A stretch of DNA of 54,626 nt from Dictyobacter arantiisoli (GTDB taxonomy: Bacteria; Chloroflexota; Ktedonobacteria; Ktedonobacterales; Ktedonobacteraceae), in NCBI RefSeq assembly GCF_008326305.1, contig NZ_BIXY01000047.1, positions 1-54,626 of the forward strand. Reading direction: 5' to 3'. A model generated the notes under the pieces. That model did not search any database. It was given only the letters and a program-made list of their open reading frames with translations, and was not told the origin of the DNA. Position numbers and translations under genes: made by a program. Below are positions 4,953 through 27,059 of the stretch, piece after piece (position 1 is the first letter of the stretch; the number at the start of each line of letters is the position of its first letter).

Positions 4953-5126
4953 ATGCCATTTGTACAAGATACTGTTCAAAATGAAGTGGGCAAAAATAGT
5001 ATGCTAAAGATTGAAGTCACAAGTGCTTCGAACACCGATGGCTGGAACGATACGCGCTCCCTGACAGGGCAAGCTGAGGAGGCCATTACAAAGGTGATAT
5101 TGAAATGGGGAAGCAAGAATGGATAA
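4953..5126 (+). CDS. Small protein opening the ATPase-CHAT operon (57 aa, unknown)
   Basis: The ATG at 4953 follows TATATGGAGTTGTAG, a reasonable ribosome binding site. The 57-residue frame overlaps the start of the AAA+ gene, whose ATG is at 5119, by 8 bases. This is the same type of overlap that links the rest of the operon. The peptide starts MPFVQDTVQNEVGKNSML and ends EEAITKVILKWGSKNG. It has no membrane segment and no motif I recognise. Position and coupling suggest a real small subunit or regulatory partner of the ATPase. Alternatively it is only a translated leader that couples translation. Confidence 0.45.
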   Translation: MPFVQDTVQNEVGKNSMLKIEVTSASNTDGWNDTRSLTGQAEEAITKVILKWGSKNG

Positions 5127-6108
5127 GAGTAGCGACAACATACTGCGAACCATTCTTCCTTATACTGAAATCGTTGAACAGAGAGAGCTGAAGATGGCAT
5201 TGGAGCTGGCTTATATTGCTCCACGCATAGGTGGTGTGCTGATCAGTGGACAGCGCGGGACCGCTAAATCGACGACGGTACGCGCCTTCGCGAGCATGAT
5301 GTATGACAAATTGCCCGTCACTATTCCGATTAATGCCACTGAGGATCGCGTTGTTGGGGGCTGGAAAATTTATAAGCTGATGGAAGAGAGCAAGCTTGAG
5401 AAACAAGCAGGATTGATCGAGGAAGCAGATGGTTCAATGCTTTATATCGATGAAGTAAACTTGCTCGATGATCATATTATTAACATTCTCCTCGATGTGA
5501 CCTCCACAGGGAAACTAATCATACAGCGCGAAGGACGTCAGGACGGCCGGGATGTGCACATGATATTAGTTGGGACGATGAATCCTGAAGAGGGTAATTT
5601 ACGGCCCCAACTGCTCGATCGTTTTGGCTTGATGGTGCAAATTACATCACTCACCGGTCGTGATACACGACGAGATATCCTCAAGACGGTACTTGCTTTT
5701 GATCGGGCGCTCCTGGAGGAAGAGCAAAACGGGACGTCACGTTATTTGGAAAACGCCCATAAAAATGCTCAGGATTACAAAGCGTTCCTCAAAGAGGCAA
5801 GAGACAGACTGCCACAGGTGACCATCCCCGAGGAGATTATCGATATTTGCGCGATGCTGACCGAGAAGTTGGAGGTTGTCGGTCATCGAGCTGACTATCT
5901 CCTGGCGGTAGCTGCCCAGGCCCATGCCGCACGCGAGAGGCACATGACGACTACCAGAGAGGATGTCCTGAAGGTGGCTGAATTGGTCCTTCGTCATCGT
6001 ATCGCGAATAGTGATCAGCTCGATAGTGCAGCATGGAATGAGGAACACCGAAAAAGTATAGTAGAGATAGTAGGACAAGTTGAACACATTGAGCACGCTT
6101 CAAAATAA
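5119..6108 (+). CDS. AAA+ ATPase, magnesium-chelatase ChlI/MoxR-like
   Basis: This 329-residue AAA+ ATPase has Walker A GQRGTAKST (residues 44-52), Walker B LYIDEVN near 108-114, sensor 1 around VGTMNPEEGNLRPQLLDRF and a C-terminal lid helical domain. The wording is of the BchI/ChlI type, in which an ATPase ring works with a vWA-bearing ChlD partner to remodel a third protein. The next gene encodes exactly such a ChlD-like partner and overlaps by 29 bases. No ChlH-like large chelatase subunit or other tetrapyrrole gene is present, and a CHAT protease follows, so a role in magnesium insertion is unlikely. I infer a regulatory ATPase controlling the downstream effector, as in MoxR-vWA conflict systems. 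Confidence 0.85.
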   Translation: MDKSSDNILRTILPYTEIVEQRELKMALELAYIAPRIGGVLISGQRGTAKSTTVRAFASMMYDKLPVTIPINATEDRVVGGWKIYKLMEESKLEKQAGLIEEADGSMLYIDEVNLLDDHIINILLDVTSTGKLIIQREGRQDGRDVHMILVGTMNPEEGNLRPQLLDRFGLMVQITSLTGRDTRRDILKTVLAFDRALLEEEQNGTSRYLENAHKNAQDYKAFLKEARDRLPQVTIPEEIIDICAMLTEKLEVVGHRADYLLAVAAQAHAARERHMTTTREDVLKVAELVLRHRIANSDQLDSAAWNEEHRKSIVEIVGQVEHIEHASK

Positions 6109-8023: not shown

Positions 8024-8025
8024 TA

Positions 8026-9669: not shown

Positions 9670-12665
9670 GGCAGAGCACCCAACTTCCAGCCATCAAACT
9701 AAACTCCTTGATTAGCTATCCAACAAAGGCACAGGTTGGGAAAAAATATTTGCTGACTATCGATGTGCAGACAGATGAAACAGATGTAGCGTGGCCTTAT
9801 CCAGAAGAAGAATATGAGATTTCATTGCAACTCAATCTCCGCCCTTTCTTCAGCTATCAATCTCTGGTGGGCCATACGCCAGCTATTATTCTGCATCGCT
9901 TTGGCGGAACCTATGGACCGGCAGAGTTCATATTGACTGCGAACACAGAAGAAGTTCCCACTGGCACCATCAAAATAACCTTCAGGAATGCAGCTGGGCT
10001 GACAATAGCCTATTTTGAATTGCCATGCGAGATCCGACAAGAGGTTGAGGTAACATCTGAGCAGAAGCGAGTCGCAAGAGTTACCCCCTCCACAGAAAAC
10101 AGGCCAATCTCACCTGCCTCCCTGACAACAGTAATACCTCCATACATTGAGGAGGTTGAACAGCAGTTGCAGCAAGCCGGATGGACAATCATAGAATATG
10201 AGACCTTCAAATCAAGAGCATGGGGACGCAATACGCAAAGTGACCCGGACCCTCTATTCATATCCTTTGTCGCTGTAAAATCACTACCTTTATATCCACA
10301 TGATTATGTGCTCCTCATTAACGAAGAGATTGTGGGCTTTGTAAAAACGCAGCATCCTAATGAGCCCCTGAATAATGGAGCAAAAACGGTTCCCTCTTCA
10401 TCATTGGCAGAAACTTTAGGAGAAGAGTGCAAGTATGCCCTTGTTCCATTTGTCTATGATGCGACAGGCTCAAAGATACAAAGTACGAACAAGCTTGAAA
10501 TCAATCCGCAATGCCGGGAAATCGCTATGTTCCATCGTCCAGAAACCCTGCAAAGATGGATTGATGGTGTCCCAGATATGTTTGCGCTGAGCAATAGCCT
10601 CTTCCGCTCACGGATACAAAATCTGCCATCATTAAAGAAGGGCACGTTACGACCCTATCAATTTGAAGCCCTGCAAGCGCTAGAGCAATCATTAGCGCGG
10701 CAACATACACGTACACTCGTGCAAATGGATGCAGGTAGCGGTCAAACACATACACTTATCAGCAGTATCTATCGTCTCTTAAAATATGGGAACGCCAAAC
10801 ACATATTGTATATAGTAGATAGTCCATCAGCCGCAGGCTATGCAATGAGTGCATTTGAACAGAGTGTGGTTGAACAGGATGATCAGAATGATGAGCCTGA
10901 TAGTACAATTACATTCACTGATAGCTTTAATGTACATTATGTACAATCATTCAATCACAGGACAAATTTGAACCCAGATGCACATGTTTATGTTGCCATG
11001 TTAGAAGATATTTATCCCCTGCTTACCGACCATCTTAATGCTACGCCTTCCTATGATTGGAACGAAAATGATGGGCCATTGCCCGTCGCCTATAATAACA
11101 ACCTTCCGATTGAATACTTTGATGCTATATTTCTAGCTGAGAGCGAGTATGTCCAATATAACCGCTGGAAACTCCTCCTCAGCTATTTCGACGCCACGAT
11201 AATTGGTATGGCAGATCATGTTTCAGAAGAAACACTTGAATTTTTCCAGCACAATCTTGTTTACCCACGGCAGACAAAGGAAGAGGTGCGTCAGCACCTC
11301 TCAAGGACCATCAAAAGCATACGCAATCTCCTACGCAGGGATGCGGGCCTGGCAGGCGATACAGATCGGCTCTCACAGCTCACATGGCTGCTCTTCCTCA
11401 AAAACCTGGATGACTTCGAAATGACCCAGGAAGAGATGTATGGTCAGAACTACAAGCCCATCCTTGAAGCTCCCTACCGCTGGCGCGACTGGGCGGCATG
11501 CGAAAACCTATCTGATCGCCGCACAGGTGATGAACTGCTCACCTTCGTCAATGCCGATCTGACCCACTATCTCAAGTCGCTGAGTGGTGAGAACAATCGG
11601 GATATCCGCACGATTGTCAGTACGATCTTCCAGGGTACCTCCAATTGTCTGAAATCTGGCTATGTTTTGTGTGATGTCATCGACAATCTAAACACCATCA
11701 ACTTTAACTCATTCGATATCGTAGAAGCTATGTCGATCTTCTATGAGACTATGCTCAGAGAGATGCGCGACTCGGCTGGCGACTCCGGCGAGTTCTATAC
11801 GCCGCGTCCCGTGGTACACTTTATCGTTGACCGTCTCAATCCCCGGTTGGGCGAGCTCATTATGGACCCCGCTTGCGGTACTGCTGGCTTCCTGATCGAA
11901 GCCTATACCAGAATGAGCAAACAAGTTAGAACCGCAGAGCAACAGCAACTCCTCTTAGACTCGCTGATCGGGATCGAAAAGAAATCAACACCCTACCTGC
12001 TCGCCATCATGAATATGCTGCTACATGGCATCGAAAGCCCCAATGTCATAGAGCGCAACGCCCTCTCCGTCAACGTCAATCAAATTCCTGATGACGAACG
12101 GGTTGACATAGTAGCCACCAATCCCCCTTTTGGTGGTGAAGAAGAAGAAGGCATCCTCAACAATTTCCCGGCCGGGATGCGCACTCACGAAACGCCTCTC
12201 CTTTTTGTTCAATACATCATGGCTCTGCTCAAACGCCCAGGTGGCCGTGCTGGCATCGTGATGCCCAATGGCTTCCTCTTTCGCAATGGCATTGCCAACA
12301 GAGTCAAAGAACAACTACTTACGCAATTCAATCTACATACCATCATACGATTGCCACATGGGGTCTTCGCGCCTTACACCAGCATACCGACAAACATGCT
12401 ATTTTTTGATGCAGGCGATGATTTCTACCTGGCAAGAACAAGGACAACGACACAAGAAGTCTGGTACTACGAGATATCACCGCCAGAAGGGCGTAAGATT
12501 TATACAAAAACCAGGCCGATACAAGATGAGGATTTCCAGGCATGCAGCAAGTGGTGGGATGAGCGCGTCGAGAATGCACATGCCTGGAAGATATCTATCG
12601 ATGAGATTATAAAGAACAACTACAATTTAGATTTTAAGAATCCATATCCAAGAAGCGAAGTGTAG
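9654..12665 (+). CDS. Fusion: beta-rich domain, dead HsdR-like half, HsdM N6-adenine methyltransferase
   Basis: This 1003-residue protein has three parts. Residues 1-130 are beta-rich with no recognised family. Residues about 140-540 align in order with a type I HsdR, but key motifs are altered: the nuclease region has NEEIVGFVKTQ where an ExK motif is expected, Walker A reads GSGQTHT instead of GTGKT, the DECH box reads AESE, and the TATP motif reads MADH. From about 542 a full HsdM follows, with an N-terminal helical domain, DPACGTAGF (near 737, AdoMet binding) and NPPFGG (near 822, catalytic). The HsdM part looks intact and is closely related to the separate HsdM at 16732. I infer a DNA-binding, methylating or methylation-sensing subunit without motor or nuclease activity. 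A GAGGAAAC ribosome binding site precedes the ATG. Confidence 0.8.
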   Translation: MQQQLGQSTQLPAIKLNSLISYPTKAQVGKKYLLTIDVQTDETDVAWPYPEEEYEISLQLNLRPFFSYQSLVGHTPAIILHRFGGTYGPAEFILTANTEEVPTGTIKITFRNAAGLTIAYFELPCEIRQEVEVTSEQKRVARVTPSTENRPISPASLTTVIPPYIEEVEQQLQQAGWTIIEYETFKSRAWGRNTQSDPDPLFISFVAVKSLPLYPHDYVLLINEEIVGFVKTQHPNEPLNNGAKTVPSSSLAETLGEECKYALVPFVYDATGSKIQSTNKLEINPQCREIAMFHRPETLQRWIDGVPDMFALSNSLFRSRIQNLPSLKKGTLRPYQFEALQALEQSLARQHTRTLVQMDAGSGQTHTLISSIYRLLKYGNAKHILYIVDSPSAAGYAMSAFEQSVVEQDDQNDEPDSTITFTDSFNVHYVQSFNHRTNLNPDAHVYVAMLEDIYPLLTDHLNATPSYDWNENDGPLPVAYNNNLPIEYFDAIFLAESEYVQYNRWKLLLSYFDATIIGMADHVSEETLEFFQHNLVYPRQTKEEVRQHLSRTIKSIRNLLRRDAGLAGDTDRLSQLTWLLFLKNLDDFEMTQEEMYGQNYKPILEAPYRWRDWAACENLSDRRTGDELLTFVNADLTHYLKSLSGENNRDIRTIVSTIFQGTSNCLKSGYVLCDVIDNLNTINFNSFDIVEAMSIFYETMLREMRDSAGDSGEFYTPRPVVHFIVDRLNPRLGELIMDPACGTAGFLIEAYTRMSKQVRTAEQQQLLLDSLIGIEKKSTPYLLAIMNMLLHGIESPNVIERNALSVNVNQIPDDERVDIVATNPPFGGEEEEGILNNFPAGMRTHETPLLFVQYIMALLKRPGGRAGIVMPNGFLFRNGIANRVKEQLLTQFNLHTIIRLPHGVFAPYTSIPTNMLFFDAGDDFYLARTRTTTQEVWYYEISPPEGRKIYTKTRPIQDEDFQACSKWWDERVENAHAWKISIDEIIKNNYNLDFKNPYPRSEV

Positions 12666-13069: not shown

Positions 13070-16000
13070 ATGGAAAGGAGTCCGCTTACGAACACACATA
13101 TCACGGTGGTAACGTCTGAGCCAGATGATGTTACACAGCGTTTGCAGAATGTAATTTGTCGCTGGCGCGTTCAACCTGAAGGATTTTCGCTTGATCAGCT
13201 TTATCAGGATTGTAGCGCGATGCTCGGATCAGATACCCACCTCCTTCCTCTGAGAATAATCACGGTTAAAGAACTCGATGCCACGAACCTTGCCCACGCT
13301 ATGAAACGCAGAAATATCTCCATTAGATTTCGCGTCGGCCCGATTGGACGCTTTGAGTCAGCCTTGATCCCCATGCTGAAGCCCGATGGTACCGGGAAGG
13401 GTTTTATCCTGGTCCTGGATGAGGATCTATCACCAGCCGATCAAGTGGCGCTCTTCGGTCACGCCGTCGCACATCTGATAAGAAATCATCGGGATCAAGC
13501 AACGGGGCAGAAGCTAACGCTCGATCCCAATAATGATGCAGTGCACATCGATAAGGTGGACGAGTTGCGCTACTTCGATCTCGCACATACTCATGATAGG
13601 ATCAATCGCAATGTGATCGAAACATGCCCCAGATTGCACCAGCTCTTTGAGACACCTGAAGAGGGTCCCATCGTTCAGGCACAGGTCAGGCAGAAACTTG
13701 ATGACCTGTTGCGCAAAAAGGGCTGGACAGGATTCTATGTGCGCCAGACACATCTCTATACCGATGGTCGTGTCCTGCCAGATCCAAATGGTCGCACACG
13801 CCGTGGCAAGCGGCAGAGTATCGACGCACTGCTGCGCATCGAACTATCCTTACCTACCGCTGCACTCCATGTGCAACGCTCAGACGAAACTGAAGCGACC
13901 GCGTTACGCCGTGTTCGTGAGGCGGGGCAGAAATTATCCGTGCCTTTCGGCTATATGGTCACTGAAAAACGCGAGATCCTTGAATACGACTGGACCACGG
14001 GCTCCGACGCGGACGTTACGCTACGGGCCGAGCTGCCTGATCGCTCGGAGCTAACAGAACGCTGGTTTAAGGCGCTGCAACTGACCGAGAAGAAGGAACG
14101 AGATGCCCTCACGCATACTTTCTATATGCAGGATAAGCAACCGCGCTATTATCAAGAGGCAGCCATCAATCGAGCGATCATTGCAACGATGCAGGCGCGG
14201 CGCGGCCTGCGTCCCAAACGTATCCTGCTCACGCTCGCCACCGGCACGGGCAAAACCCAGATCGCCTTCCAGATCCTCTGGAAATTGCGTCAGAGCCACA
14301 ATACGCGCCGCATCCTCTTCCTGGCAGACCGCAGCTATCTGCTCGATCAGGCCCAGTTCAATGCTTTTGGTCCCTTCACCGATGCTCTGGCTCGTGGCAC
14401 TGGCAAGATTGATATCGTGCATGATGTACTCTTCGCCTCCTACCAATGGCTTACCACGAACAACGCAGTGACCGGCCAGCCCAACTATCTCGACTATCCC
14501 TCCGATTACTTCGATATCATCGTGATTGATGAGTGTCATCGCGGGAGCGCGGATGAAGATTCCAACTGGCGTAAGGTGCTCTTACACTTTTCCGAGGCCA
14601 TCCAGATTGGTCTGACCGCGACGCCGTTAGCAACCAGGGATGTTCAGACCAACGCCTACTTTGGCGCATCTATCTATACCTATTCACTTAGTCAGGGCAT
14701 CAATGATGGCTATCTGGCCCCCTATCGCGTACACCGTATCCAGATTGGCAAACAGGTAGCAAAGCCAGCGCCAGAGCAGGATCAAAAGGATAATCCTTCC
14801 GCAACACAGGTAACACAGGCAACACAGGCAACACAGAATTTCATCGGGGTTGTGCCTGAAGCACCAGAGCAGGATGGTAAGCCGCAGGAGGAGGTCGCGC
14901 CGGAGATTGTGACTGAGACGGCCCAGGCGATGCGCGAATATACCACAGTAATCGCGGACCACCTCGCTAACTATCTGCGTCAGACCGATACACAGGCCAA
15001 GACGATTATCTTCTGTGTCGATAATAACCATGCCAACCAGATGCGGCTGGCGCTTGAAACTGCCTGCGCTGATTTCGCTCGCGCCGGGGATATTGTGCGC
15101 ATTGTCGATGATGATGGCAATGATGGCAAGCTGGATCTCAACAACTTCTGTATTCCCAAAGAGCGTCAGCCGGTCATCGTCACGACCTCACGCCTGCTCA
15201 GTACCGGCGTCGATGTGCCAACCTGCAAAAATATCGTGCTGGCACGCGGCGTCGGCTCGATCGTGGAGTTCAAACAGATTATCGGGCGTGGCACTCGCCT
15301 CTATACCACAGCGACGCCCGCCAAGAACTGGTTTACGATCCTCGACTATTCCGGGGCGATCAAACACTTCTTTGACCGTGACTTCGATGGTGATCCAGAA
15401 GCTATCCAAAATGAACAGCTCATCATCAAAACACCAACGAGCACAGCTGAAAACACAGAACAGGCCGAACCGGGAGAACAGCCAGGCACCGAGACAAAGA
15501 GAGAAGCAGACCCATCAGAAAGGGTAGCAGATACGGCTACAGACAGCCCGGCGACGCAGCAGGAGGAAGACAATCATAACACAGTTGTCACCCCAGGCGC
15601 TGAAAGTGATGCTGAAGAGCCTGCCAGCCATCCCGGCCAGAATAATACGCCAGAGCAGGAAGCTGGATCTCCCCAGGATAGTCAGCAGGAGAACAGTGGA
15701 GCGCCAGCTACGAACACGATTGATGAGCAGACAGAACAAACTGGCGTGGAGGGAACAGGGAAAGGCAATCCGGCAGAAGAAGGAGCGCGTGCTGATGATC
15801 TGGCGGCATCCATCCAGGCGAGCAGGAGCGAGGGGCAATCGGCTGTGTCAGAGCGAAAAAAGCCACGACAGGTGAAGGAGCAGCCTTCTGCTAAGTTTAC
15901 AGGACCGCAGGAAGCGACGGCAGAGCAGGCTGAGACATTAGCAAAGGCCGAAAAGCAGGGGCGGGCACACAGGCTTGGGAAGAAGAGCGATGGGACGGTC

Positions 16001-16555
16001 TATGAGATCGTAAATGATGTTATCTATGAGCTGGGACCAGATAATCATCTGCGCCTGGGAAGTATGCACGATTTCGCGCAGCAGGCGCTGCGGGGCTATA
16101 TCTCGACGCCCGAAGACTTTCGCCTGCTCTGGCTCACCAAAGAGGGGCAGAAAGAGATTAAGGAGCAGTTAGAAGGCGAGCTGGTGACGACCGATGCCCT
16201 GGCCGCCGCACTCAAGAAGGACGATGTGGATGTACTGGATCTGTTGCTCTATGTTGTCTTCGATATTGAGCCGCTGACACGAGTACAGCGCGTGGAGCGT
16301 TTGCGCCAGCGCCATCAGGACTTTTTCCAGCGTTTTGCCCAACCCCCTTTAGCAAGTCAGGTACTCAATGCCATTCTGGATAAATACATCCTTGGGGAAG
16401 CGCCCGATGTGAGTAAGCCCGCGCTGCTTAGCCTCCCACCGTTGACCAAACTGGGTATGCCCATGGACCTTTCCAGAGCATTCAGTACAGGACCAGAGAG
16501 AAAAAACGTCTCGGAGGTGCTACGCGAACTACGCAGCTTGCTCTATAGCGTTTAA
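13070..16555 (+). CDS. hsdR: Type I restriction enzyme HsdR-like subunit with degraded nuclease motif
   Basis: This 1161-residue protein has an intact SF2 motor: GTGKT near residue 389, DECHRGS near 486, GLTATPLATRD near 513 and IIGRGTRL near 736. This is the ATP-dependent translocase of type I enzymes. The preceding region corresponds to the PD-(D/E)xK nuclease. It keeps an Asp in IDALLRIE, but the usual ExK is ALHVQRSD, so cleavage may be lost. Near residue 131 the sequence FGHAVAHLIRNH resembles the HExxH helix of ImmA/IrrE-like metallopeptidases with Ala in place of Glu, also apparently inactive. About 180 acidic, Gln/Glu/Thr-rich residues (near 785-965) separate the motor from a C-terminal EcoEI-like helical region. 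The start is not supported by a strong ribosome binding site. Confidence 0.85.
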   Translation: MERSPLTNTHITVVTSEPDDVTQRLQNVICRWRVQPEGFSLDQLYQDCSAMLGSDTHLLPLRIITVKELDATNLAHAMKRRNISIRFRVGPIGRFESALIPMLKPDGTGKGFILVLDEDLSPADQVALFGHAVAHLIRNHRDQATGQKLTLDPNNDAVHIDKVDELRYFDLAHTHDRINRNVIETCPRLHQLFETPEEGPIVQAQVRQKLDDLLRKKGWTGFYVRQTHLYTDGRVLPDPNGRTRRGKRQSIDALLRIELSLPTAALHVQRSDETEATALRRVREAGQKLSVPFGYMVTEKREILEYDWTTGSDADVTLRAELPDRSELTERWFKALQLTEKKERDALTHTFYMQDKQPRYYQEAAINRAIIATMQARRGLRPKRILLTLATGTGKTQIAFQILWKLRQSHNTRRILFLADRSYLLDQAQFNAFGPFTDALARGTGKIDIVHDVLFASYQWLTTNNAVTGQPNYLDYPSDYFDIIVIDECHRGSADEDSNWRKVLLHFSEAIQIGLTATPLATRDVQTNAYFGASIYTYSLSQGINDGYLAPYRVHRIQIGKQVAKPAPEQDQKDNPSATQVTQATQATQNFIGVVPEAPEQDGKPQEEVAPEIVTETAQAMREYTTVIADHLANYLRQTDTQAKTIIFCVDNNHANQMRLALETACADFARAGDIVRIVDDDGNDGKLDLNNFCIPKERQPVIVTTSRLLSTGVDVPTCKNIVLARGVGSIVEFKQIIGRGTRLYTTATPAKNWFTILDYSGAIKHFFDRDFDGDPEAIQNEQLIIKTPTSTAENTEQAEPGEQPGTETKREADPSERVADTATDSPATQQEEDNHNTVVTPGAESDAEEPASHPGQNNTPEQEAGSPQDSQQENSGAPATNTIDEQTEQTGVEGTGKGNPAEEGARADDLAASIQASRSEGQSAVSERKKPRQVKEQPSAKFTGPQEATAEQAETLAKAEKQGRAHRLGKKSDGTVYEIVNDVIYELGPDNHLRLGSMHDFAQQALRGYISTPEDFRLLWLTKEGQKEIKEQLEGELVTTDALAAALKKDDVDVLDLLLYVVFDIEPLTRVQRVERLRQRHQDFFQRFAQPPLASQVLNAILDKYILGEAPDVSKPALLSLPPLTKLGMPMDLSRAFSTGPERKNVSEVLRELRSLLYSV

Positions 16556-16731: not shown

Positions 16732-18348
16732 ATGGTCGTCACCCACACTCAACACGCCCTCGGAGATGATTTTCCAGTTACTGATACAGATACGCAGGAG
16801 GCCACCGTCAACGCGGCCTCGAAACAGAAGCGCCAGACCAAGAAAGCGAAGCTACCGTTGAGCAGTAAACAACAACTCTCGGCTACCATCAAAAGCGTAC
16901 GCGATCTCCTGCGCAAGGACGCAGGCCTGGCAGGTGATACGGATCGCCTACCGCAGCTCACCTGGCTGCTCTTCCTCAAAAGCCTGGATGACTTCGAAAT
17001 AGCCCAGGACGAGATGTATGGTGACGACTACACGCCCATCATCGCGGAACCCTACCGCTGGCGTGACTGGGCGGCCTGCGACAACCTATCTGATCGTAAA
17101 ACCGGCGATGAACTGCTCGCATTCGTGAATAACGACCTGACCAACTATCTCAAAGCGCTGGGCGGCGAGAGTAACCGGGATATCCGCACCATCGTCGGCA
17201 CCATCTTCCAGGGTACCTATAATCGGCTACGCTCCGGCTATCTCTTGCGCGATGTCGTTAATAAGCTCAGTACTATCAACTTCAACTCCTCCGACGATAT
17301 CCATGCTATTTCACTCTTCTACGAAACCATGCTGAAAGAGATGCGCGACTCGGCAGGCGATTCCGGCGAGTTCTATACGCCGCGTCCCGTGGTGCGTTTT
17401 ATCGTTGATCGTCTCAATCCCCAACTGGGCGAGCGCATTATGGACCCCGCCTGCGGAACCGCTGGCTTCCTGATCGAAGCCTATACCAAAATGCGCGAGC
17501 AGGTCAAAACCACCGAACATCAGCAAACCCTCTTCGATGCGCTGATCGGGATTGAGAAGAAGCCCATGTCCTATTTACTGGCGATCATGAACCTGCTGCT
17601 ACACGGCATCGAAAATCCCAATATCAGAGAGCGCAATGCCCTGGCGGTGAACGTCAATCAGATCCCAGATAACGAGTTGGTTGATGTTATAGCCACCAAT
17701 CCCCCTTTTGGTGGTGAAGAAGAAGATGGCATCATCAAAAACTTCCCGGCCGGGATGCGCACCCACGAAACCGCGCTGCTCTTCTTCCAATACATCATGG
17801 CCCTGCTCAAACGTCCTGGTGGCCGCGCAGGCGTCGTGCTCCCCAACGGCTTCCTCTTTGGCAATGGCATCGCCAGCACCGTCAAAGCCAGACTGCTCAA
17901 ACAATTCAATCTACACACCATCGTTCGCCTACCTGTGGGAACCTTTGCCCCCTACACCAGCATTCCCACCAATATCCTTTTCTTTGACGCCTGTGAAGAG
18001 TCAAGCGAGCTAGACCCTAAGCCCTGCACTCAGGAGGTCTGGTACTACGAGATTCCACTGCCAGAGGGACGCAAAAGCTATAGCAAAACAAAACCCATGC
18101 AGAATGAAGATTTCCAGGGCTGCATCGATTGGTGGGAGAAGCGCGTCGAGAACGAACACGCCTGGAAAGTCAACGTCGAAGAACTGATAGCCAATGGCTA
18201 CAACCTGGATATGAAGAATCCCAATGGACAAAAAGAACTTGTACATCTGCCGCCTGAACAATTAGTTGAAAGCATTCTGGAAAAAGAGCAACGGATTGTA
18301 GATATTATGGGTGAAATCAAAAGGATGTTGGGAGAAAGTAACAAATGA
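16732..18348 (+). CDS. hsdM: Type I restriction-modification methyltransferase subunit HsdM
   Basis: This 538-residue N6-adenine methyltransferase subunit has an N-terminal helical HsdM domain from about residue 50 (LSATIKSVRDLLRKDAGLAG). The AdoMet-binding MDPACGTAGFLIEAY and the catalytic NPPFGGEEEDGII are both intact. The protein would methylate the host recognition sequence as part of an M2S complex and associate with HsdR for restriction. The ATG follows GAAGGAAATTGTAGC, and the stop overlaps the hsdS start codon (ATGA), so HsdM and HsdS are translationally coupled. The same protein, with many substitutions, forms the C-terminal half of the fusion encoded at 9654-12665. One copy therefore probably arose by duplication of the other. 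Confidence 0.93.
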   Translation: MVVTHTQHALGDDFPVTDTDTQEATVNAASKQKRQTKKAKLPLSSKQQLSATIKSVRDLLRKDAGLAGDTDRLPQLTWLLFLKSLDDFEIAQDEMYGDDYTPIIAEPYRWRDWAACDNLSDRKTGDELLAFVNNDLTNYLKALGGESNRDIRTIVGTIFQGTYNRLRSGYLLRDVVNKLSTINFNSSDDIHAISLFYETMLKEMRDSAGDSGEFYTPRPVVRFIVDRLNPQLGERIMDPACGTAGFLIEAYTKMREQVKTTEHQQTLFDALIGIEKKPMSYLLAIMNLLLHGIENPNIRERNALAVNVNQIPDNELVDVIATNPPFGGEEEDGIIKNFPAGMRTHETALLFFQYIMALLKRPGGRAGVVLPNGFLFGNGIASTVKARLLKQFNLHTIVRLPVGTFAPYTSIPTNILFFDACEESSELDPKPCTQEVWYYEIPLPEGRKSYSKTKPMQNEDFQGCIDWWEKRVENEHAWKVNVEELIANGYNLDMKNPNGQKELVHLPPEQLVESILEKEQRIVDIMGEIKRMLGESNK

Positions 18349-19651
18349 TCACGCAACATTCAATGGTACATCTAGCAGATCTATTAATAAAATCTGAAGA
18401 GCAAGCAGAGATTGATCCAGCTAAAACTTACAAATTAGTAACAGTGAAATTATGGGGAAAAGGGGTAGAACTTAGAGGTGAATTTGAAGGAATAGGTTTA
18501 ACCAATTCCCAATTATTTGTCGTTAAGGAACAACAATTTATTTTATCAAAAATTGATGCGAGAAATGGTGCATTTGGTCTTATCCCAGCATCACTCAATA
18601 ATGCAGTAGTTAGTTCAGATTTTCCAACTTTTTCACTCAACACATTAAAAATTATACCAGCATATTTAAATTGGCTAAGGCATGGTTCAGAATGAGCTCA
18701 GATCAATGTGACAACTTTGAACAACCCACACTGTGAAAAATAAATCCTGAGAGGGCCTCCTGAGCGGCTTCAGGATTTATTTGTGGGTGTTTCCATCGTT
18801 CACAACTGTCACATCCATTTGAACCTTGCCTAAGTAAAACTAATGATTTTGTAAATATTTGTGCCCGAGCTAGTGAAGGTTCTACCAACAGAGTTCGTTT
18901 AAAGATCGAGCGCTTTCTTGCTACTCAAATCCCCCTCCCCCCACTCGAAGAACAACGCCGCATCGTCGCCCGCATCGAAGAGCTTACGGGCAAGCTTGAA
19001 GAGGCTTGGACACTAAGAAACAATACAAATAAAGATAAAAGAAACCTTTTATTAAGCGAATACATAAATATAACCAAAAAGATAGAAATGCACCCTATGG
19101 GTGAAATTGCACCGCTTATAAGAAGGCCAGTGGAAGTTGACATAGATAAAGATTACCTCGAACTGGGTATACGTTCTTTTGGCAAAGGCACATTCCACAA
19201 AACTCCAACTAAAGGAACTGAATTAGGGGCAAAAAGAATATTTAGAATCAAAGAAAGTGATTTGCTTTTTAATATAGTTTTTGCCTGGGAAGGTGCTATA
19301 GCAGTAGCAACATCTAATGATAATGGTAGAGTAGGATCACATAGGTTCTTAACTTGTGTTCCTAAAGGAAACATAGCAACTTCTGAGTTCTTATGCTTTC
19401 ACTTCTTAACAAAAGCAGGCCTAGAACAAATTCTAGCAGCATCTCCTGGCAGTGCTGGAAGAAACCGAACCTTAGGGATAAAAGCATTAGAGGATATTCG
19501 AGTGCCCCTTCCACCTATTGATAAACAAAGGAATTTTACCGCTCTTATCAAGGCTTTAAGTGCCACAAATCAAATCGACGAAGAAGTGGAAAAAGAGTGG
19601 GACTCCTTGCTTCCCGCAATTCTTGACAGAGCATTCAAAGGGGAGTTGTAA
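18345..19651 (+). pseudogene. hsdS: Type I specificity subunit HsdS, interrupted by a MITE
   Basis: The frame starting at 18345 gives the first target-recognition domain up to AYLNWL and then hits a stop inside a 152-bp insertion (18679-18830). The same protein resumes after it as SKTNDFVNICARASEGSTNR. It continues through a coiled-coil conserved region (PPLEEQRRIVARIEELTGKL), a second recognition domain and a final helix (PPIDKQRNF to FKGEL, stop at 19651). Removing the insertion and one TAA copy restores a single 383-residue frame of normal HsdS length. HsdS chooses the DNA sequence, so this disruption should silence both methylation and restriction by the cognate complex unless the element excises. 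A start further inside the second part (19088) could give a half-size protein. Confidence 0.85.
18679..18830. mobile_element. MITE (152 bp) inserted in hsdS
   Basis: The terminal inverted repeats are GGCATGGTTCA at the left and TGAACCTTGCC at the right, an 11-bp match with one mismatch. They are flanked by a TAA duplication at 18676-18678 and 18831-18833. The identical context CTAAG lies on both sides. The centre holds a strong hairpin, AATAAATCCTGA with TCAGGATTTATT. There is no reading frame for a transposase. The first 45 bases closely match the end of the larger element starting at 54505, so that family is the likely source of transposase. A three-base TNA target points toward IS5-like groups, which is an inference. 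Confidence 0.85.
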
Positions 19652-19652
19652 C

Positions 19653-19913
19653 ATGGCTGAACCCAACTATAGAACTATTGCCAATGAAGTCGTTGAGTTG
19701 GGCGAGAGTCTGTTTGAGCTGGCTTTGCAGGGGCAGGCTGTACAGCACGCAGACACTACCATAGCTGGGGATGTGGAGCAGCAAGCAGTCGCTTCGGAGC
19801 AAGGGTTGGAGCAAGAGCCGGGATACCCGACAGAGGAGATACGCATCGCGGCGGATGAGTTTTTCACGGCGCTGCGTTTATTGTTGGGGGTGCCACAACA
19901 GAATAATCGGTAA
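19653..19913 (+). CDS. Small acidic protein after hsdS (86 aa, unknown)
   Basis: The ATG follows AAAGGGGAGTTGTAAC, one base after the hsdS stop, so it is part of the hsdMS operon. The 86-residue protein (MAEPNYRTIANEVVELGE onward) is acidic and mostly helical in character, with a Gln/Glu-rich centre and a final amphipathic segment EEIRIAADEFFTALRLLLG. No known domain is recognised. Position suggests an accessory of the type I complex or a link to the helicase gene that begins 85 bp downstream. Confidence 0.6.
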   Translation: MAEPNYRTIANEVVELGESLFELALQGQAVQHADTTIAGDVEQQAVASEQGLEQEPGYPTEEIRIAADEFFTALRLLLGVPQQNNR

Positions 19914-19998: not shown

Positions 19999-22900
19999 AT
20001 GGATACCAGGACGCGGATTGTAGAGATCGCGACGGAGTTGTTAGGCACGGAACAGGCCGGGATGACTGGCGAGGCGCTGGTGCGACAGGTGGCAAAGAAG
20101 CTGGGCCGCAATCTGCCGCCGGTCCATATTATGAAGCTGCTGCAAGAACGGCCCCAGGATTTTGTGGAGGATGATGGTGGGCGCTGGCGCTTACGCCAAC
20201 GGCAGTCCACCCTCTTCACCGCCGAGGAAACAGTATCAGTACCCACAACCAGCCAGACAGGCACAGCAGACGCGCCAGAACCAGAGCTCAAGCGCGGCAG
20301 CTATGTGATCTTTGATCTGGAGGCGACCCAGCAGGATGCACGCTCCCCCTATACAGAGATTATTCAGATTGCGGCTGAACGCTGGCAGGATGGGGTACGC
20401 CTGGATACCTGGATGCGCTTCGTCAAGCCTGAAGTGGAGATCCCTGAGCGTATCATCGAGCTGACCAAGATCACACGTGAGGAATTGCGCGACGCCCCCT
20501 CGATCCATGAAGTGCTGCCAGCGTTTTTCGCCTATGCTGGCGAGCTACCACTGATCGCGCACAATGGTGCCAGCTACGATGGTCCCTTGATCGAGAGCAC
20601 CTGCCAGCGCCTCAACATCCCCCTCCCGCCCTCCTTTCTAGTCCTGGATACCCTGCCGCTGGCTCGCACGCTGCTACCAACCGAGGAGGCGCATCGCGTC
20701 GGCACGCTCGCCAAACGCTTTGGCTGCGCCCGCGAAGATGCCCATCGCGCCGATGCCGATGTAGAGATGCTCGGCGGCATCGTCAAGGGCCTGGAAGATC
20801 TGCTGCATGAGGATGCCAGCGGCTCCGCAGTCTACGAGTTCCTGCTGCGCGCCAATGATCCCTGGACCGCCCTGCTCACCCCACCTGCAGAGCCTCCCAG
20901 CACCGCCGAGATCCTCGCCACCTTTGCCAGAAACATCACCCCCCTGATCCCTGAATCCATGCCCGCCAGCCAGAGCCCGCTCGACGCAAGCGCCCTCGAT
21001 GTCACCTTTACGCAGGCAGAACAATTGGGACGCACACGCCGCCCGGCCCAGATCGAGATGTCCCAACTGGCAATCGGTACGCTACGCGATGGAGGATACG
21101 CCATCATCGAAGCAGGCACCGGCACCGGCAAGAGCCAGGGCTATCTGCTTCCCGCCGCCCTCGCAGCCCGCTCCAGTGGACGCCCCATCGCCGTCTCCAC
21201 CTTCACGCGTATCCTGCAAAGTCAGCTCGTGAAACGCGAACTCCCCTTCATCCAGCAGCTCATCCCCGAAATCACCTCGACCCAGCTCCAGGGGCGCGCC
21301 AACTATCTCTCGCTCTCGCGGCTGGCCGAAGAAGTAGAAGACGCCCTCACCGAAAAAAGCCTGACCCCGGCACGCGCCTGGATGCTCGCAACTCTGATCC
21401 GCTTCGCCGCCAGCACGATCCACGGCAACCTCGAAGAGCTCGGCATGCTCCCCCAGGCATTGGATAGCTTTCTCAACGCCGAGGGCGCTCCCTTACAGAT
21501 CATCGCCAGTGTACGCTCCAGCCAGGACGATACGCCCGGCATGGGCGTGCCGCACGATTTCTATCGCCGGGCACGTGAGAACGCCGACCGCGCCAATCTG
21601 GTCGTCGTCAATCACGCGCTCCTGCTACGCAATAGTCTCGGCCTCGAAGACGAAGAGGTTCCCTTTGCAAGCACCATCATCTGCGATGAGGCCCATACGC
21701 TAGAGGATGCCGCCACCAGGGCCCTGGAACGGCGCGTTGAGGAACGCGTCCTACGCCGTATCCTGCGCGCCATCCACAATCCCCAGCGCGGCGGCTTCGT
21801 CAACGACTGCCTGCGCAGACTGCATATGCCTGAGAGCGATCCGACCCTCCAGGCCCTCGGCAAGGCCGTAGACACTGCCCAGGCCGCCCTCGATAACCTC
21901 TCCAGACGCCTGCATACCTATGTCACCAGCGTCGCCGTCGTCGCCACTGAAGATATGCGCCGCTACGGTGTACGCGTACGTATCGACAAAAACGCCCTCG
22001 CCATGGCAGGTGGGCCCGCCCTGCGCACAGCCTATCAGGCCACCGAAGAGGCCCTCAAACAGCTCCGCACCATCCTGGCAACTTTGATCGAACAACTCGG
22101 TGCCAACACAGAGGCATCCCCGGAAGCAAACAAGCAGAACTATGACAGCAAACGCAAGCGCCGCATCCAACGGCTGGCCCGCTCACTTCAGCGCGACCTG
22201 GGCGAACACGTCGCCAACTTTCAATGGTTCTGGCGCTTCGACCAGAGCAGCAGCTATGTCTATACCGTCGAACTAGAAAAGCAAGAGATCAGTAGCGAGA
22301 GCAAGCCAGCAGAAAAAGAGCGCCCCAGAGCCCCGATTGTGATCAGCGCCGTCCCCATCAACGTTGGCCCACTGCTCTGGACACACCTCTGGTCCCGGCT
22401 GGATGCGGCCATCTGCACCTCAGCCACCCTGACCGTCTCCGGGCAGGGCTTTGACTTCTTCCTGCGTCGCGTCGGCTTAGAAGCGGAACGTATTGCCAGC
22501 GCCGGTACTGGCAAGCAATTAATTACCCACACGCTGCCCCACGCCTTCAACTATCATGAGAAAGCCTTACTCATGCTACCCAACGATCTGCCCGCCCCCA
22601 GGGATAGTGATCTAAAACGCAACTTCCCGGCTGCCGTCGCCGAGCTCTTGCGCCGCTTCATCCCAACCTTTGAAGGTCGCTCGCTGGGACTCTTTACCGC
22701 CAACTCGCGGCGCGACTTCGTCTATGAGCATATCGTGGATGAACTCTCAAATAAAGGATATCCCGTCCTGCGCCAGGGTCAGGGCAGTCTCCAATCGCTC
22801 ATCGACCGCTTCCGCGAAGAAGATCCCACCTCCCTGCTCGGCACTCGCTCACTCTGGGAAGGCGTCGACGTACCAGGACCCTCGCTCTCCTATGTCTTCC

Positions 22901-25527
22901 TGGAGAAACTCCCTTATCCCAGCCTCGGCGATCCCGTCGAGGCGGCCCGCATGGGAGCCGTCGAGAACGCGGGCGGCAACCCATTCTATGACTATATGCT
23001 TCCCAAAATGATCATTATCCTCAAGCAAGGCTTCGGACGCCTGATTCGCTCTAACGAGGACAAAGGGGCCGTGATTCTCCTCGACAAGCGCCTGCGCAAC
23101 TCGCTCTATCGCCGTGATGTCCTGGCCTCCCTGCCTGATCCCACCATCGGCTACGAATCCGATCTCGACATGTTCCAACAGATCGCCGCCTGGATGGGCC
23201 GGACCCTCGATCCATCCGAGCTGCCCGCACCGACCGTGCCCGATGTCCAGCGCGTCTTAAATGAACAGGCGCTATCATCTCCCATCGTCTCCCTCGAAGA
23301 CTTTGAGTTGACTGCCAGACCGCGCCTGCTCGCCGTCCAAAAAGCCATCTGGAACCAGGACAGCTTCCGAGATGGACAAGAAGCGATTATCCGCGATGTC
23401 CTGGCCGGAAAAGATGTCCTGACGCTACTGCCCACGGGAGCAGGCAAGAGCCGTACCTATCAGCTCCCGGCCCTTATTCGTCCCGGCCTGACGCTGGTCA
23501 TCTCGCCCTTAATCGCGCTGATCCGGGATCAGGTCGAGAAGTTGCGCGAGGTACCCGGCATCACCTGCGTCGCCTCGCTCGTCTCCGGCATGGATGCCGC
23601 CAGCCAGGAAGAGGTATTGCGCAACGCGGTAGCCGGTAAGATCAAGCTTCTCTACGTCTCGCCCGAACGTCTGCGCGATCCCCGTTTCCGTGCCTATCTC
23701 CCCCAGCTCAGGCTCGTTCAGCTAGTCGTGGATGAGGCCCATTGTATCTCAACCTGGGGACATGACTTCCGCCCCGACTTCCTGGGCATCATGCAGCATC
23801 TACCTGCGAGGGACACCAATACAACCTATCCCATCCACGCCCTGACCGCCACAGCCACCGAACAGGTACAGGGTGAGATCATCGCAGGCTTAACCCTGAA
23901 CGCACCCGGTCATGAACTGGTCACGCATACCGGAGACTTTGTGCGCGACAATCTGATCTTCCGCATGTATCACGTGGAGAAAAAAGAAGAGCGCGACATC
24001 ATGACCCTGAGCATCGTGCATCAGATTGTCCACAACCAGGAGCGCGGCGGCGCGGGTATCGTCTACGTAGCCACCAGGAAAAACGCCATGCAGCTAGCCC
24101 GCCTGCTGCGTGACAACAACGTCGCCGCGCAGGCCTATCACGGAGGCATGGAGACGGCCGAACGACACCAGGTACAGGAACGCTTTATGCAAGGCGACCT
24201 GGATGTCGTCGTCGCCACCTCCGCCTTTGGCATGGGCGTCGACAAGGCTGAGATCAGATTTGTCCTGCACTATGATCATCCCGCCAGTCTGGAAGCCTAT
24301 GCGCAAGAGGCAGGTCGAGCTGGACGCGATGGCAAAGAAGCCTATGCCATCCTGCTCTATCATCGCCAGACCCAGCAAACCGAACGCTTCATCGCCCGCC
24401 AGGGCGTCCCTGATCGACTGGTCCTGCAACGCTACCGCAACGCCCTCCTCTCCTTCGACGAAGAGGACTCGCCCATCGTGCGCCTCCCAGATCACACCAT
24501 CATCTGCAATCCCGACACGCTGGCCGAGCTAGCCAACATTGAAATCACCCAGGCCCGCGTCCTCCTCTACTCCTTTGAAGAGGCCGGACTGATCCAGCGC
24601 GACGTTGATAGCACACTGGAAGCCAGCATCATGCTCACCCAACCGCTCGCCAACGTGCTGGCAGGATTATCCACGCCGGAGGATCAAGAGCTTGCGCAAC
24701 GCCTCTTCACCACACTGGACGCCAGACCCGACTATCAAGTCACCTATCAGGCCACTCGATGCTACCAACAAGCCGGAATCGATCCCCGACGCATTGATCC
24801 TCTCCTGGTAGAACTGGCAAGCAAAGACCTCCTCCTGTATCGCGCCTACAAGCGTGGCATCAGCTTCAGGATCGATCAAAGCATTCATAACAACAACCAG
24901 CTCATAACCATCGAGAGCAAGTTCGGGCGTCGCTATCAGCGCTTCGAGGAACGCCTCCAGAGCATGCTCGACTACATATGGTTAAAGTCAGGCCAGAACC
25001 GTTGCCGCAGCGCTGAACTGATCAATTATCTAACGAACCAGCACGATACGCCCCATTGTGGCAAATGCGACCTGTGCAGTCCCACCCGCGAAGGACTGCC
25101 CTGGGACCCCGGACTGCGCCTCTTCACCGAGAAGCTCACCGTCAACACACGGCTGGCAATCCTCGGCGCGGCACGCGATCACAATGGCATCTATGCGCAA
25201 GGCACCCTGGAAAGAATCCTGCTGGGTATCCCCTATACCCAATATGCAGGACAAAAGAAACCATTAACCACAGCCGCCCGGAGCTCCGATCACTATGACG
25301 AGCTCAAAGGTCACAGGATCACACAAAATCAGCTCCGCCAAACGTTTATAGCATTAATCGAAGGCGGCTATCTGCAACAGCTAGAAAAGCCACTGCGCAA
25401 TCAAACTAGCGCTAGCGAACGCAAGACCTATCAGGCCATCGCCATCACCCAGAAGGGGCGAGACGCCCTGGCGGGCGGCATAGAACTGCCAGCCGCAACA
25501 GAACAAGAACTAGAGGTGCACGCGTGA
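19999..25527 (+). CDS. DnaQ-like exonuclease / DinG helicase / RecQ helicase triple fusion
   Basis: This 1842-residue protein combines parts usually found separately. Residues 1-75 look like a winged helix. Residues 100-270 form a DEDDh exonuclease (FDLEAT, IAHNGASYDGP, HRADADVEM). Residues about 335-1085 form an XPD/DinG-type SF2 helicase with Walker A GTGTGKS near 372, DEAH near 562 and a late arginine-finger motif QGFGRLIRS. Residues about 1110-1500 form a RecQ helicase with LPTGAGKS near 1143, DEAHCISTWGHDFRPD near 1243 and QEAGRAGRDG near 1437, followed by zinc ligands HCGKCDLC near 1686. The iron-sulphur cysteines of classical DinG are not obvious. All ATPase motifs look intact. The ribosome binding site is GAGGGAG. 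The gene overlaps its partner by four bases and probably serves DNA repair or phage defence. Confidence 0.9.
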   Translation: MDTRTRIVEIATELLGTEQAGMTGEALVRQVAKKLGRNLPPVHIMKLLQERPQDFVEDDGGRWRLRQRQSTLFTAEETVSVPTTSQTGTADAPEPELKRGSYVIFDLEATQQDARSPYTEIIQIAAERWQDGVRLDTWMRFVKPEVEIPERIIELTKITREELRDAPSIHEVLPAFFAYAGELPLIAHNGASYDGPLIESTCQRLNIPLPPSFLVLDTLPLARTLLPTEEAHRVGTLAKRFGCAREDAHRADADVEMLGGIVKGLEDLLHEDASGSAVYEFLLRANDPWTALLTPPAEPPSTAEILATFARNITPLIPESMPASQSPLDASALDVTFTQAEQLGRTRRPAQIEMSQLAIGTLRDGGYAIIEAGTGTGKSQGYLLPAALAARSSGRPIAVSTFTRILQSQLVKRELPFIQQLIPEITSTQLQGRANYLSLSRLAEEVEDALTEKSLTPARAWMLATLIRFAASTIHGNLEELGMLPQALDSFLNAEGAPLQIIASVRSSQDDTPGMGVPHDFYRRARENADRANLVVVNHALLLRNSLGLEDEEVPFASTIICDEAHTLEDAATRALERRVEERVLRRILRAIHNPQRGGFVNDCLRRLHMPESDPTLQALGKAVDTAQAALDNLSRRLHTYVTSVAVVATEDMRRYGVRVRIDKNALAMAGGPALRTAYQATEEALKQLRTILATLIEQLGANTEASPEANKQNYDSKRKRRIQRLARSLQRDLGEHVANFQWFWRFDQSSSYVYTVELEKQEISSESKPAEKERPRAPIVISAVPINVGPLLWTHLWSRLDAAICTSATLTVSGQGFDFFLRRVGLEAERIASAGTGKQLITHTLPHAFNYHEKALLMLPNDLPAPRDSDLKRNFPAAVAELLRRFIPTFEGRSLGLFTANSRRDFVYEHIVDELSNKGYPVLRQGQGSLQSLIDRFREEDPTSLLGTRSLWEGVDVPGPSLSYVFLEKLPYPSLGDPVEAARMGAVENAGGNPFYDYMLPKMIIILKQGFGRLIRSNEDKGAVILLDKRLRNSLYRRDVLASLPDPTIGYESDLDMFQQIAAWMGRTLDPSELPAPTVPDVQRVLNEQALSSPIVSLEDFELTARPRLLAVQKAIWNQDSFRDGQEAIIRDVLAGKDVLTLLPTGAGKSRTYQLPALIRPGLTLVISPLIALIRDQVEKLREVPGITCVASLVSGMDAASQEEVLRNAVAGKIKLLYVSPERLRDPRFRAYLPQLRLVQLVVDEAHCISTWGHDFRPDFLGIMQHLPARDTNTTYPIHALTATATEQVQGEIIAGLTLNAPGHELVTHTGDFVRDNLIFRMYHVEKKEERDIMTLSIVHQIVHNQERGGAGIVYVATRKNAMQLARLLRDNNVAAQAYHGGMETAERHQVQERFMQGDLDVVVATSAFGMGVDKAEIRFVLHYDHPASLEAYAQEAGRAGRDGKEAYAILLYHRQTQQTERFIARQGVPDRLVLQRYRNALLSFDEEDSPIVRLPDHTIICNPDTLAELANIEITQARVLLYSFEEAGLIQRDVDSTLEASIMLTQPLANVLAGLSTPEDQELAQRLFTTLDARPDYQVTYQATRCYQQAGIDPRRIDPLLVELASKDLLLYRAYKRGISFRIDQSIHNNNQLITIESKFGRRYQRFEERLQSMLDYIWLKSGQNRCRSAELINYLTNQHDTPHCGKCDLCSPTREGLPWDPGLRLFTEKLTVNTRLAILGAARDHNGIYAQGTLERILLGIPYTQYAGQKKPLTTAARSSDHYDELKGHRITQNQLRQTFIALIEGGYLQQLEKPLRNQTSASERKTYQAIAITQKGRDALAGGIELPAATEQELEVHA

Positions 25528-27059
25528 GTGAATTTTCCCCAGAAGAACAGGCCTTTCTCGATGAGGCCTATCAACGCCTGCGCACCACGCGCACAACCTT
25601 TACCGACAAAGAGGCCCTGCAACCCGCCTTTGACGAAGGCTACGATCTCGACATGCTCCACGATCCCCGCTTCGCCAGAGCGGAACTCAAGCAAGGCGAC
25701 ATCCCACCTCATTATCGCCTGGCAGAACACATCCTTGCCAACACCCGCCTCCTCAATGAATTACAGGCAGGAACATGGGATGGCAACAACCTAACCACCA
25801 AACTCGCGGAACTCGACACTGAAATAGAGCCAGCTCAGGATGGGGAAAGACAGCAGCATCACATCTTCTATCCACACGATCCCCGTATCTTTCAAAACCG
25901 TCAGGGAGCCTGGGAAGCGCACGGAGAACGTCAAATCACAGTGCCCTTAGATCTCACAACAACACTGGATACCCTGCTAGCAGGGCTAAAAAAGCGCTGG
26001 TTACAGATCAACACCCCCCTGACCATCAACCGTATCATCGAACTGCTCAGAGACCAGGGCTGGAAACAGAGTGAGCGTCCAAATGCCGCTCGCTATATCC
26101 GGGCCTGGCTCTTATCCACCAGCCAATTCCAACGCGTAAACCAGGACTACTGGATACCCCTGGAACTGCTGCCCCCTGAAATCCAACACACCCGCCTACA
26201 AGTACAGCCACTGCGCACACCTGATCAACCACAAGAACCAGAGCAAGCAGGAAATATTACTGATCCGACAGGAGAGCAAAGTACACCAACCAGCCAGCGC
26301 CCATCATACGCAGAAACATTGATTGTCAAAGGCACCGCAACAAAATCCCATGTCAGTTGGACAACCTATTTGCGAACCAGCAATCTCAATGAAGGCTTCC
26401 TGGCTGTTCCCAAAGCCATGCAGGTCATCTATCCGCCTCAGTTTCCCGGAGAGAGCACTCAGGCCGTCATACGTGGCAGATGGTACACCGACAATACCAT
26501 GCTCTGGATCTGGCTCGACCGCGTCCAGCATCGTCTCTACGGACCCGACCTGCTCGACAAATTCTTCGACCAGGACACCGGCGATAAGCTCCGCATTGAA
26601 TGGCAGGCAGACGAAATTACATTGCACCTGGCAGGCCATAGCGACGAAATCCAGCAGGAAGAAACGCGCCTGATCGACATAGAAGAACTCAAACAGTTAC
26701 GCCTGGGCATAGGCGAAAACTACCGTCAAACCATACAAGCAATATTAGCAGCAGCGCCCCAGGGGCTCCTATTTCGTGAGCTAGTCAGGATAGTAAGCGA
26801 GCGACAACAGCATCCCGTCTCATCCCGCAGCATACGCGCCCTACTCGCAGCAGGAACATTCCTACATCACCAGGGACGCTGGTACGCAGCACCAAACGAC
26901 AAAGACAGCGCCCGAGCACTGCGCGCAACCCTGATTGAAACACTGGTACCGCCAGAGCAAAGCACCCACGCCACCCATAGCGAATATGTACACACAAGAG
27001 TCAACGCCATCTATCAACGCCTGACAGAAATCACCCAACTACTACGGGACAGCGTTTGA
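25524..27059 (+). CDS. Partner of the DinG-RecQ fusion (511 aa, unknown function)
   Basis: The gene starts with GTG inside the stop region of the helicase gene (GTGA overlap), so the two proteins are almost certainly made together. No family is recognised. The first 120 residues are acidic and helical. A segment at about 165-215 (LTINRIIELLRDQGWKQ to NQDYWIPLELLP) and another at about 410-465 (GLLFRELVRIVSERQQHPVS to HHQGRWYAAP) have the pattern of winged-helix domains. A proline-rich linker lies near 230-265. The protein could be a DNA-binding or specificity subunit for the helicase. No catalytic motif is visible. Confidence 0.75.
   Translation: MSEFSPEEQAFLDEAYQRLRTTRTTFTDKEALQPAFDEGYDLDMLHDPRFARAELKQGDIPPHYRLAEHILANTRLLNELQAGTWDGNNLTTKLAELDTEIEPAQDGERQQHHIFYPHDPRIFQNRQGAWEAHGERQITVPLDLTTTLDTLLAGLKKRWLQINTPLTINRIIELLRDQGWKQSERPNAARYIRAWLLSTSQFQRVNQDYWIPLELLPPEIQHTRLQVQPLRTPDQPQEPEQAGNITDPTGEQSTPTSQRPSYAETLIVKGTATKSHVSWTTYLRTSNLNEGFLAVPKAMQVIYPPQFPGESTQAVIRGRWYTDNTMLWIWLDRVQHRLYGPDLLDKFFDQDTGDKLRIEWQADEITLHLAGHSDEIQQEETRLIDIEELKQLRLGIGENYRQTIQAILAAAPQGLLFRELVRIVSERQQHPVSSRSIRALLAAGTFLHHQGRWYAAPNDKDSARALRATLIETLVPPEQSTHATHSEYVHTRVNAIYQRLTEITQLLRDSV

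Follow-up and report, generated by a model that had tools for sequence, protein, structure and literature searches.

The window analysed here, the complete 54,626-nucleotide contig NZ_BIXY01000047.1 of Dictyobacter arantiisoli (Chloroflexota; Ktedonobacteria), encodes an exonuclease-DinG-RecQ fusion protein (EDR) and, coupled to it, a partner protein, which together close a six-gene set with the order hsdR-hsdM-hsdS-small open reading frame (ORF)-EDR-partner, entirely on the forward strand. The same order was found in all three complete loci, namely, those of the window, Tengunoibacter tsumagoiensis and genome G449, which represent three genera and two classes, so that the position of the EDR downstream of hsdRMS is constant among independent genomes. 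We propose, with a confidence somewhat short of an even chance, that the EDR and its partner constitute a helicase-nuclease add-on of type I restriction-modification (R-M) within a six-gene accessory defence set. The proposal builds on the observed anatomy, catalytic motifs, gene order, accessory spread and loss of an iron-sulphur (Fe-S) site, from which we infer the activities, the recruitment and the role in defence. The first-pass annotation, made from the sequence alone, had pointed to a possible defence system, a view that the genomic context partly supports.

The EDR (1842 amino acids; 19999-25527) is a stop-free ORF in which the domain libraries (Pfam and NCBIfam) and alignment with relatives recover the triple fusion anticipated by the first-pass annotation. 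A small helical region at the N-terminus precedes a DEDDh 3'-5' exonuclease domain (residues 103-258; 20305-20772; Pfam RNase_T PF00929, E 5.6e-22) with the motifs FDLEAT, HNGASYD and AHRADAD, followed by a DinG/XPD helicase module (residues 335-1049; 21001-23145; dinG_rel TIGR01407, E 1.5e-114) and a RecQ helicase core (residues 1115-1471; 23341-24411; recQ TIGR00614, E 1.5e-114). Residues 346-1066 match PRK08074/DinG (NCBIfam, E 2.4e-142) and residues 887-1046 Helicase_C_2 (Pfam, E 1.9e-37), whereas the score against the full-length DinG equivalog NF005981 stays at 476 of 789 bits. The protein thus displays the ExoDinG order of a DEDDh exonuclease and an XPD-type helicase, with intact motifs and an added RecQ half. 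The latter belongs to the RecQ family, its 329.5 bits against TIGR00614 exceeding the curated cut-off of 219.8, and contains Pfam DEAD (1125-1290, E 5e-34) and Helicase_C (1338-1445, E 6.5e-24) matches. A helical or winged-helix-like insert (residues 1471-1627; 24409-24879), apparent in an AlphaFold2 model with a predicted local distance difference test score (pLDDT) of ~77 in this part, separates the core from a RecQ zinc-binding domain (residues 1632-1693; 24892-25077), whose match to RecQ_Zn_bind PF16124 (E 1.8e-4) lies just below the cut-off and whose four zinc cysteines are present in the alignment. Foldseek searches with the RecQ tail yielded weak matches throughout, the RQC domains of BLM and RECQL among them. 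Comparison with aligned relatives shows that the exonuclease DEDDh residues are intact, as are the Walker A motif and the DEAH or DEAD box of each helicase, the regions of motifs III, V and VI and the RecQ zinc cysteines; the assertion that every motif is preserved nevertheless fails for the Fe-S cysteines of the DinG module, none of the four being present. Over its full length, the EDR is conserved at 66-67% identity in a second genus and at 56% in a second class, far above chance.

The partner (511 amino acids; 25524-27059) starts with a GTG codon at 25524 inside the EDR stop, so that the two genes share the four bases GTGA, as had been noted at first pass; the corresponding overlap in Tengunoibacter is ATGA. 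The protein matched no family in Pfam, PADLOC or NCBIfam and no sequence in PDB, and no matches were found among plasmids or viral contigs. It occurs in three of the 47 genomes of the class, the same three that carry the EDR, and is absent from four congeners; among the 158 genomes of a second class, G449, itself an EDR carrier, has a full-length copy. As to their joint occurrence, which the first-pass annotation had advised looking for, the EDR accompanied the partner in all four genomes with a full-length partner, in which the latter is 46% (Tengunoibacter), 51% (G014) and 40% (G449) identical to that of the window. A GTDB-wide scan with strict peptide patterns retrieved only Tengunoibacter and the G014 metagenome-assembled genome (MAG), being blind to G449-like partners and hence no measure of total spread.

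Three sequences went into an AlphaFold2 model of the partner, the general quality of which is poor (pLDDT 57; predicted template modelling score, pTM, 0.28). The winged-helix-like parts attributed to this protein earlier are visible in two regions of this low-confidence model, residues 142-212 (25947-26159) and, towards the C-terminus, 399-455 (26718-26888). Between them, a beta domain (residues ~276-370; 26349-26633) resembles B3 DNA-recognition domains; the weak Foldseek matches, with E-values of 2e-3 to 0.1, include At1g16640 B3, BfiI, LlaJI.R1, LEC2, VRN1 and UbaLAI and are for the most part B3 domains, some from restriction enzymes and others from plants, with no match in Pfam. Poor structure models may yield false fold matches, and we take this assignment seriously only because one fold class recurs among the top matches. 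Taken with this caution, the partner is likely a B3-type DNA-recognising protein. In restriction enzymes, B3 domains serve to recognise particular DNA sequences. A partner homologue in G061 (L018 9950-10592, reverse strand) is a decayed, 5'-truncated piece and was therefore not used as context; it adjoins a cytosine methyltransferase gene and a Vsr endonuclease gene, and similar decayed pieces are found in G020 (C1:2623777) and G445 (C204:923).

Ahead of this pair lie genes for an EcoAI-like HsdR restriction subunit (1161 amino acids; 13070-16555; PADLOC REase_I, E 1e-140; NCBIfam EcoAI R, E 1e-192) and an HsdM methyltransferase subunit (538 amino acids; 16732-18348; PADLOC MTase_I, E 9e-186), in agreement with the R-M neighbourhood described at first pass. 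The hsdS specificity gene (18345-19651), intact in Tengunoibacter (407 amino acids), is broken in the window by a frame change and stops that leave ORFs at 18345-18695 and 19088-19651. The type I system of this genome may accordingly lack a specificity subunit of its own, in which case either another HsdS serves there or the EDR-partner pair works alone. The small ORF between hsdS and the EDR (86 codons; 19653-19913) occupies the same place in Tengunoibacter (67 codons, 54% identity) and G449 (61 codons, 41% identity), and all three copies retain the motif EVxELGE...DEFFxxLRLLL; two EDR-less loci of the same HsdM family, G036 and G051, showed no such ORF downstream of hsdS. The small ORF, the constant order in other genera and the break in hsdS had escaped the first-pass annotation. 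HsdM is 59% identical between the window and G449. In comparison with Tengunoibacter, HsdM (70%), the EDR (66%) and the partner (46%) are accompanied by an HsdR of 44% identity, which, given the 66-70% of the EDR and HsdM, has probably been exchanged. In G014, hsdM and hsdS end at the edge of contig C419 and the EDR starts at the edge of C222, an arrangement that fits the six-gene order but proves nothing. This restriction-linked form, with its Fe-S-less EDR and likely B3-type partner, appears to be undescribed in the open-access papers and the PADLOC release of 2023 that were searched.

The triple fusion as such is not unprecedented; it has been known since 2005, when a three-domain DnaQ-DinG-RecQ protein was reported on the megaplasmid pTT27 of Thermus thermophilus HB27, absent in HB8, and treated among genome-maintenance genes (Omelchenko et al., 2005; PMC1274311); in our analysis, it was identified as TT_RS10770. 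A tblastn search over plasmids revealed EDRs in T. thermophilus, T. oshimai, T. aquaticus, Meiothermus, Allomeiothermus and Deinococcus, annotated as RecQ family helicases or hypothetical proteins, and several of these Thermaceae and Deinococcus plasmid genes adjoin CRISPR or BREX genes. Within the Chloroflexota, full-length or contig-cut EDRs are present in the window, Tengunoibacter (G010), the Ktedonobacteraceae MAG G014, G293, G448 and G449; the copy in G379 is truncated. A word search of a 2025 review of DinG-like proteins found no mention of RecQ (PMC11981726), and no function for the fusion was found in the open-access papers searched. In a tree of the RecQ core, all 12 EDRs fall on the same side of one branch (support 78/77), so that, judging from the sequences, a single origin of the fusion is possible.

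The EDR is present in only three of 201 relatives and in none of four other genomes of the genus, and the D. arantiisoli genome encodes a housekeeping ExoDinG, a DinG and two RecQ proteins elsewhere. With few genomes carrying either member and such housekeeping copies present, the EDR and its partner are an accessory pair. The possibility raised at first pass as one that would refute the defence reading, namely, that the pair might be a core repair gene of all relatives, was rejected on account of this sparse spread, the partner being confined to three of the 47 genomes of the class.

The loss of the 4Fe-4S cysteines follows the same division. A clade with full support in the RecQ-core tree unites the EDRs of the window, Tengunoibacter, G014 and G449, and in these none of the four is present; all four are retained in those of Thermaceae, Deinococcus, G293 and G448 and in the truncated G379 copy. 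At the sequence level, the loss thus coincides exactly with the restriction-linked clade, and the EDRs display a natural loss of the Fe-S cluster inside one fusion family. The closest solved exonuclease-DinG protein is Staphylococcus aureus DinG (SaDinG; PDB 8zef), a member of a group in which no complete Fe-S site is present (PMC11981726); it possesses 3'-5' exonuclease and 5'-3' helicase activities (PMC12345164); an earlier study, as cited in PMC11981726, did not find the helicase activity. Since SaDinG is active despite its membership in this group, the absence of the cluster is compatible with a working DinG motor as well as with an inactive one.

The genes behind the EDR differ among lineages. 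In G293, a 2162-amino-acid sacsin-type protein follows that scores as Tiamat TmtA (PADLOC, E 4e-125); in Thermaceae, a trio of hypothetical genes encodes two coiled-coil proteins and one of ~510 amino acids; in Deinococcus, the neighbour has 886 amino acids, and in G448 at least four genes follow. A relationship between the window partner and the G293 sacsin-type, Deinococcus 886-amino-acid, Thermus 514-amino-acid and G448 267-amino-acid proteins, suspected by eye, was not supported by profile comparison, which detected no homology among the lineage-specific partners and the window partner. The EDR therefore looks like a shared enzyme with varied partners, one helicase-nuclease chain whose partner gene changes from lineage to lineage.

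Given hsdRMS upstream and a likely DNA-reading partner downstream, the EDR is most economically read as a device that finishes off, by processing or destruction, whatever DNA the type I enzyme has recognised or cut. In such a scheme, the restriction complex would recognise unmodified foreign DNA, translocate and cut; the partner, via its B3-like and winged-helix parts, would deliver the EDR to the DNA, where the RecQ module (3'-5' in known relatives) would unwind, the DinG module (lacking the Fe-S cluster here, and 5'-3' in known relatives) might pull on or clamp the other strand, and the DEDDh domain would degrade from 3' ends, so that the invader would be destroyed instead of being left with a repairable cut. 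Carried on a single chain, motors of opposite polarity could track the two strands of a cut duplex together, much as RecBCD, built of unrelated parts, does. The full version of this scenario, in which a type I set carries a single-chain machine of two helicase motors, expected to be of opposite polarity, and a 3'-5' exonuclease, functionally RecBCD-like but unrelated, that is aimed by a B3 partner and destroys the invader after restriction cuts, is one we entertain with considerable doubt. It raises the question of whether restriction recruits a helicase-nuclease to finish cut DNA, and the conserved place behind the type I genes, the small ORF and the likely DNA-recognising partner make the function of the EDR directly testable.

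The restriction add-on is favoured by the conserved six-gene order, the EDR-partner co-occurrence, the accessory spread and the housekeeping copies elsewhere, and further by the plasmid EDRs near CRISPR or BREX genes, the TmtA-like neighbour in G293, the B3-like partner model, the precedent of the CglI/NgoAVII restriction systems and the activities of SaDinG despite the incomplete Fe-S site of its group. Several observations weigh against it. Only three complete loci support this order, the same HsdM family occurs without an EDR in G036 and G051, and hsdS is broken in the window while the EDR and partner remain open. No type I R-M genes lie beside the EDRs of Thermaceae, Deinococcus, G293 and G448 in the stretches examined, and hence the EDR does not need one. 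The B3 assignment comes from a low-confidence model (pLDDT 57, pTM 0.28) with E-values of 2e-3 or worse, and the roles known for ExoDinG proteins lie in crosslink repair, replication stress and RNA processing. Moreover, AddAB-like PD-(D/E)XK helicase-nucleases are encoded in the D. arantiisoli genome, so that the EDR fills no obvious gap; a function as a stand-in for an absent RecBCD or AddAB was rejected on this ground.

Alternatively, the EDR and partner might be a stand-alone defence pair, with the partner as a sensor of foreign DNA or of a phage structure that guides the helicase-nuclease, and with the type I genes as no more than frequent island neighbours. The lineage-dependent partner genes without detectable homology, as if the EDR were a shared effector, and the persistence of both frames next to the broken hsdS are as expected under this scenario, which we nonetheless hold to be somewhat unlikely, considering that an order shared with hsdRMS and the small ORF has been kept across two classes at 56-67% identity, exceeding chance neighbourhood. 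The EDR could also serve the R-M carrier in repair or self-protection, processing host chromosome breaks, stalled complexes or crosslinks that result from self-restriction: RecQ and DinG families are repair helicases, SaDinG with both activities is required for crosslink resistance (PMC12345164) and the Thermus fusion was placed among genome-maintenance genes (PMC1274311). The sporadic, plasmid-borne or R-M-linked spread and the housekeeping copies in the same genome render this unlikely. Finally, an ordinary enzyme of DNA metabolism, untied to restriction and located here by an accident of island gene shuffling, would be compatible with the mere three complete R-M-linked loci and with the exchange of parts suggested by HsdR (44%) versus HsdM (70%) and the EDR (66%), but is improbable in view of the conserved order, the small ORF, the four-base overlaps and the full EDR-partner co-occurrence.

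Further features of the window and of the D. arantiisoli genome were recorded alongside. The HsdR of the set carries an N-terminal extension of ~210 amino acids (13070-13700) that includes an HxxxH stretch, FGHAVAHLIRNH; an SNF2/NO VEIN helicase protein directly behind the G449 operon begins with the same extension (L053 7612-7106). Upstream, an HsdR-like helicase part and a further HsdM copy, which shares 73% identity with that at 16732-18348, lie in a single frame (9654-12665). This frame gives the impression of a second type I locus shortened by deletion, or else of an unusual fusion; contig C611 of G014 contains a similar frame. The region 5119-9669, with a MoxR-type AAA ATPase (5119-6108), a 647-amino-acid protein and a CHAT-like protein (8026-9669), resembles a MoxR/CHAT conflict system; the CHAT neighbour named at first pass is, however, a weak match (E 0.006). 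A tyrosine-type integrase at the contig edge (150-815) possibly marks the border of a mobile island with defence genes. Elsewhere in the genome, a match on contig C151 (L019 137-4414) proved not to be an EDR; in this 1425-amino-acid protein, a RecQ core containing an additional zinc-ribbon-like insert precedes a UvrD-like NTPase region, and the next genes are a shorter helicase-like ORF and one resembling a transposase. Two related loci on contigs C25 and C93 (L030 and L031) contain large frames of ~1720-1780 and 960-985 amino acids that match the DEAD helicase profile, a third frame of >1100 amino acids and two smaller adjacent genes, and likely represent another, duplicated multi-gene helicase system.

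Among known systems, Dpd is approached through the RecQ core, which matches the PADLOC DpdF models (E 5e-122); membership was rejected, as the RecQ core alone matches, the score against DpdF NF041063 (202.6 of 550 bits) is below the equivalog cut-off and no other Dpd protein was seen. The likeness to Tiamat is limited to the TmtA-like partner in G293, that of the window not being TmtA-like. RecQ and WRN helicases share the RecQ core, and WRN also combines it with a 3'-5' exonuclease, but they lack the DinG module, and the EDR has the insert between RecQ core and zinc domain. The S. aureus ExoDinG (PDB 8zef; PMC12345164) parallels the EDR in its N-terminal DEDDh exonuclease, its DinG helicase and its group without a complete Fe-S site, but has no RecQ half, R-M operon or partner. 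The Thermus HB27 fusion, itself strain-variable and near CRISPR genes, possesses the same three modules in the same order with all catalytic motifs in the full-length alignment; unlike the EDR, to which it is ~32% identical in matched stretches, it keeps the four Fe-S cysteines, lacks the N-terminal extension and is followed by the coiled-coil trio instead of the window partner, with no type I R-M beside it. The CglI/NgoAVII restriction systems employ a nuclease subunit together with a separate DEAD-family ATPase (PMC4267653). The window pair would resemble them in its working scheme, with a B3-type recognition subunit and a separate helicase-type ATPase serving a restriction system. The B3 domain of CglI/NgoAVII is placed in the nuclease protein, whereas in the window the partner shows no nuclease domain and the nuclease domain is part of the helicase chain, the EDR.

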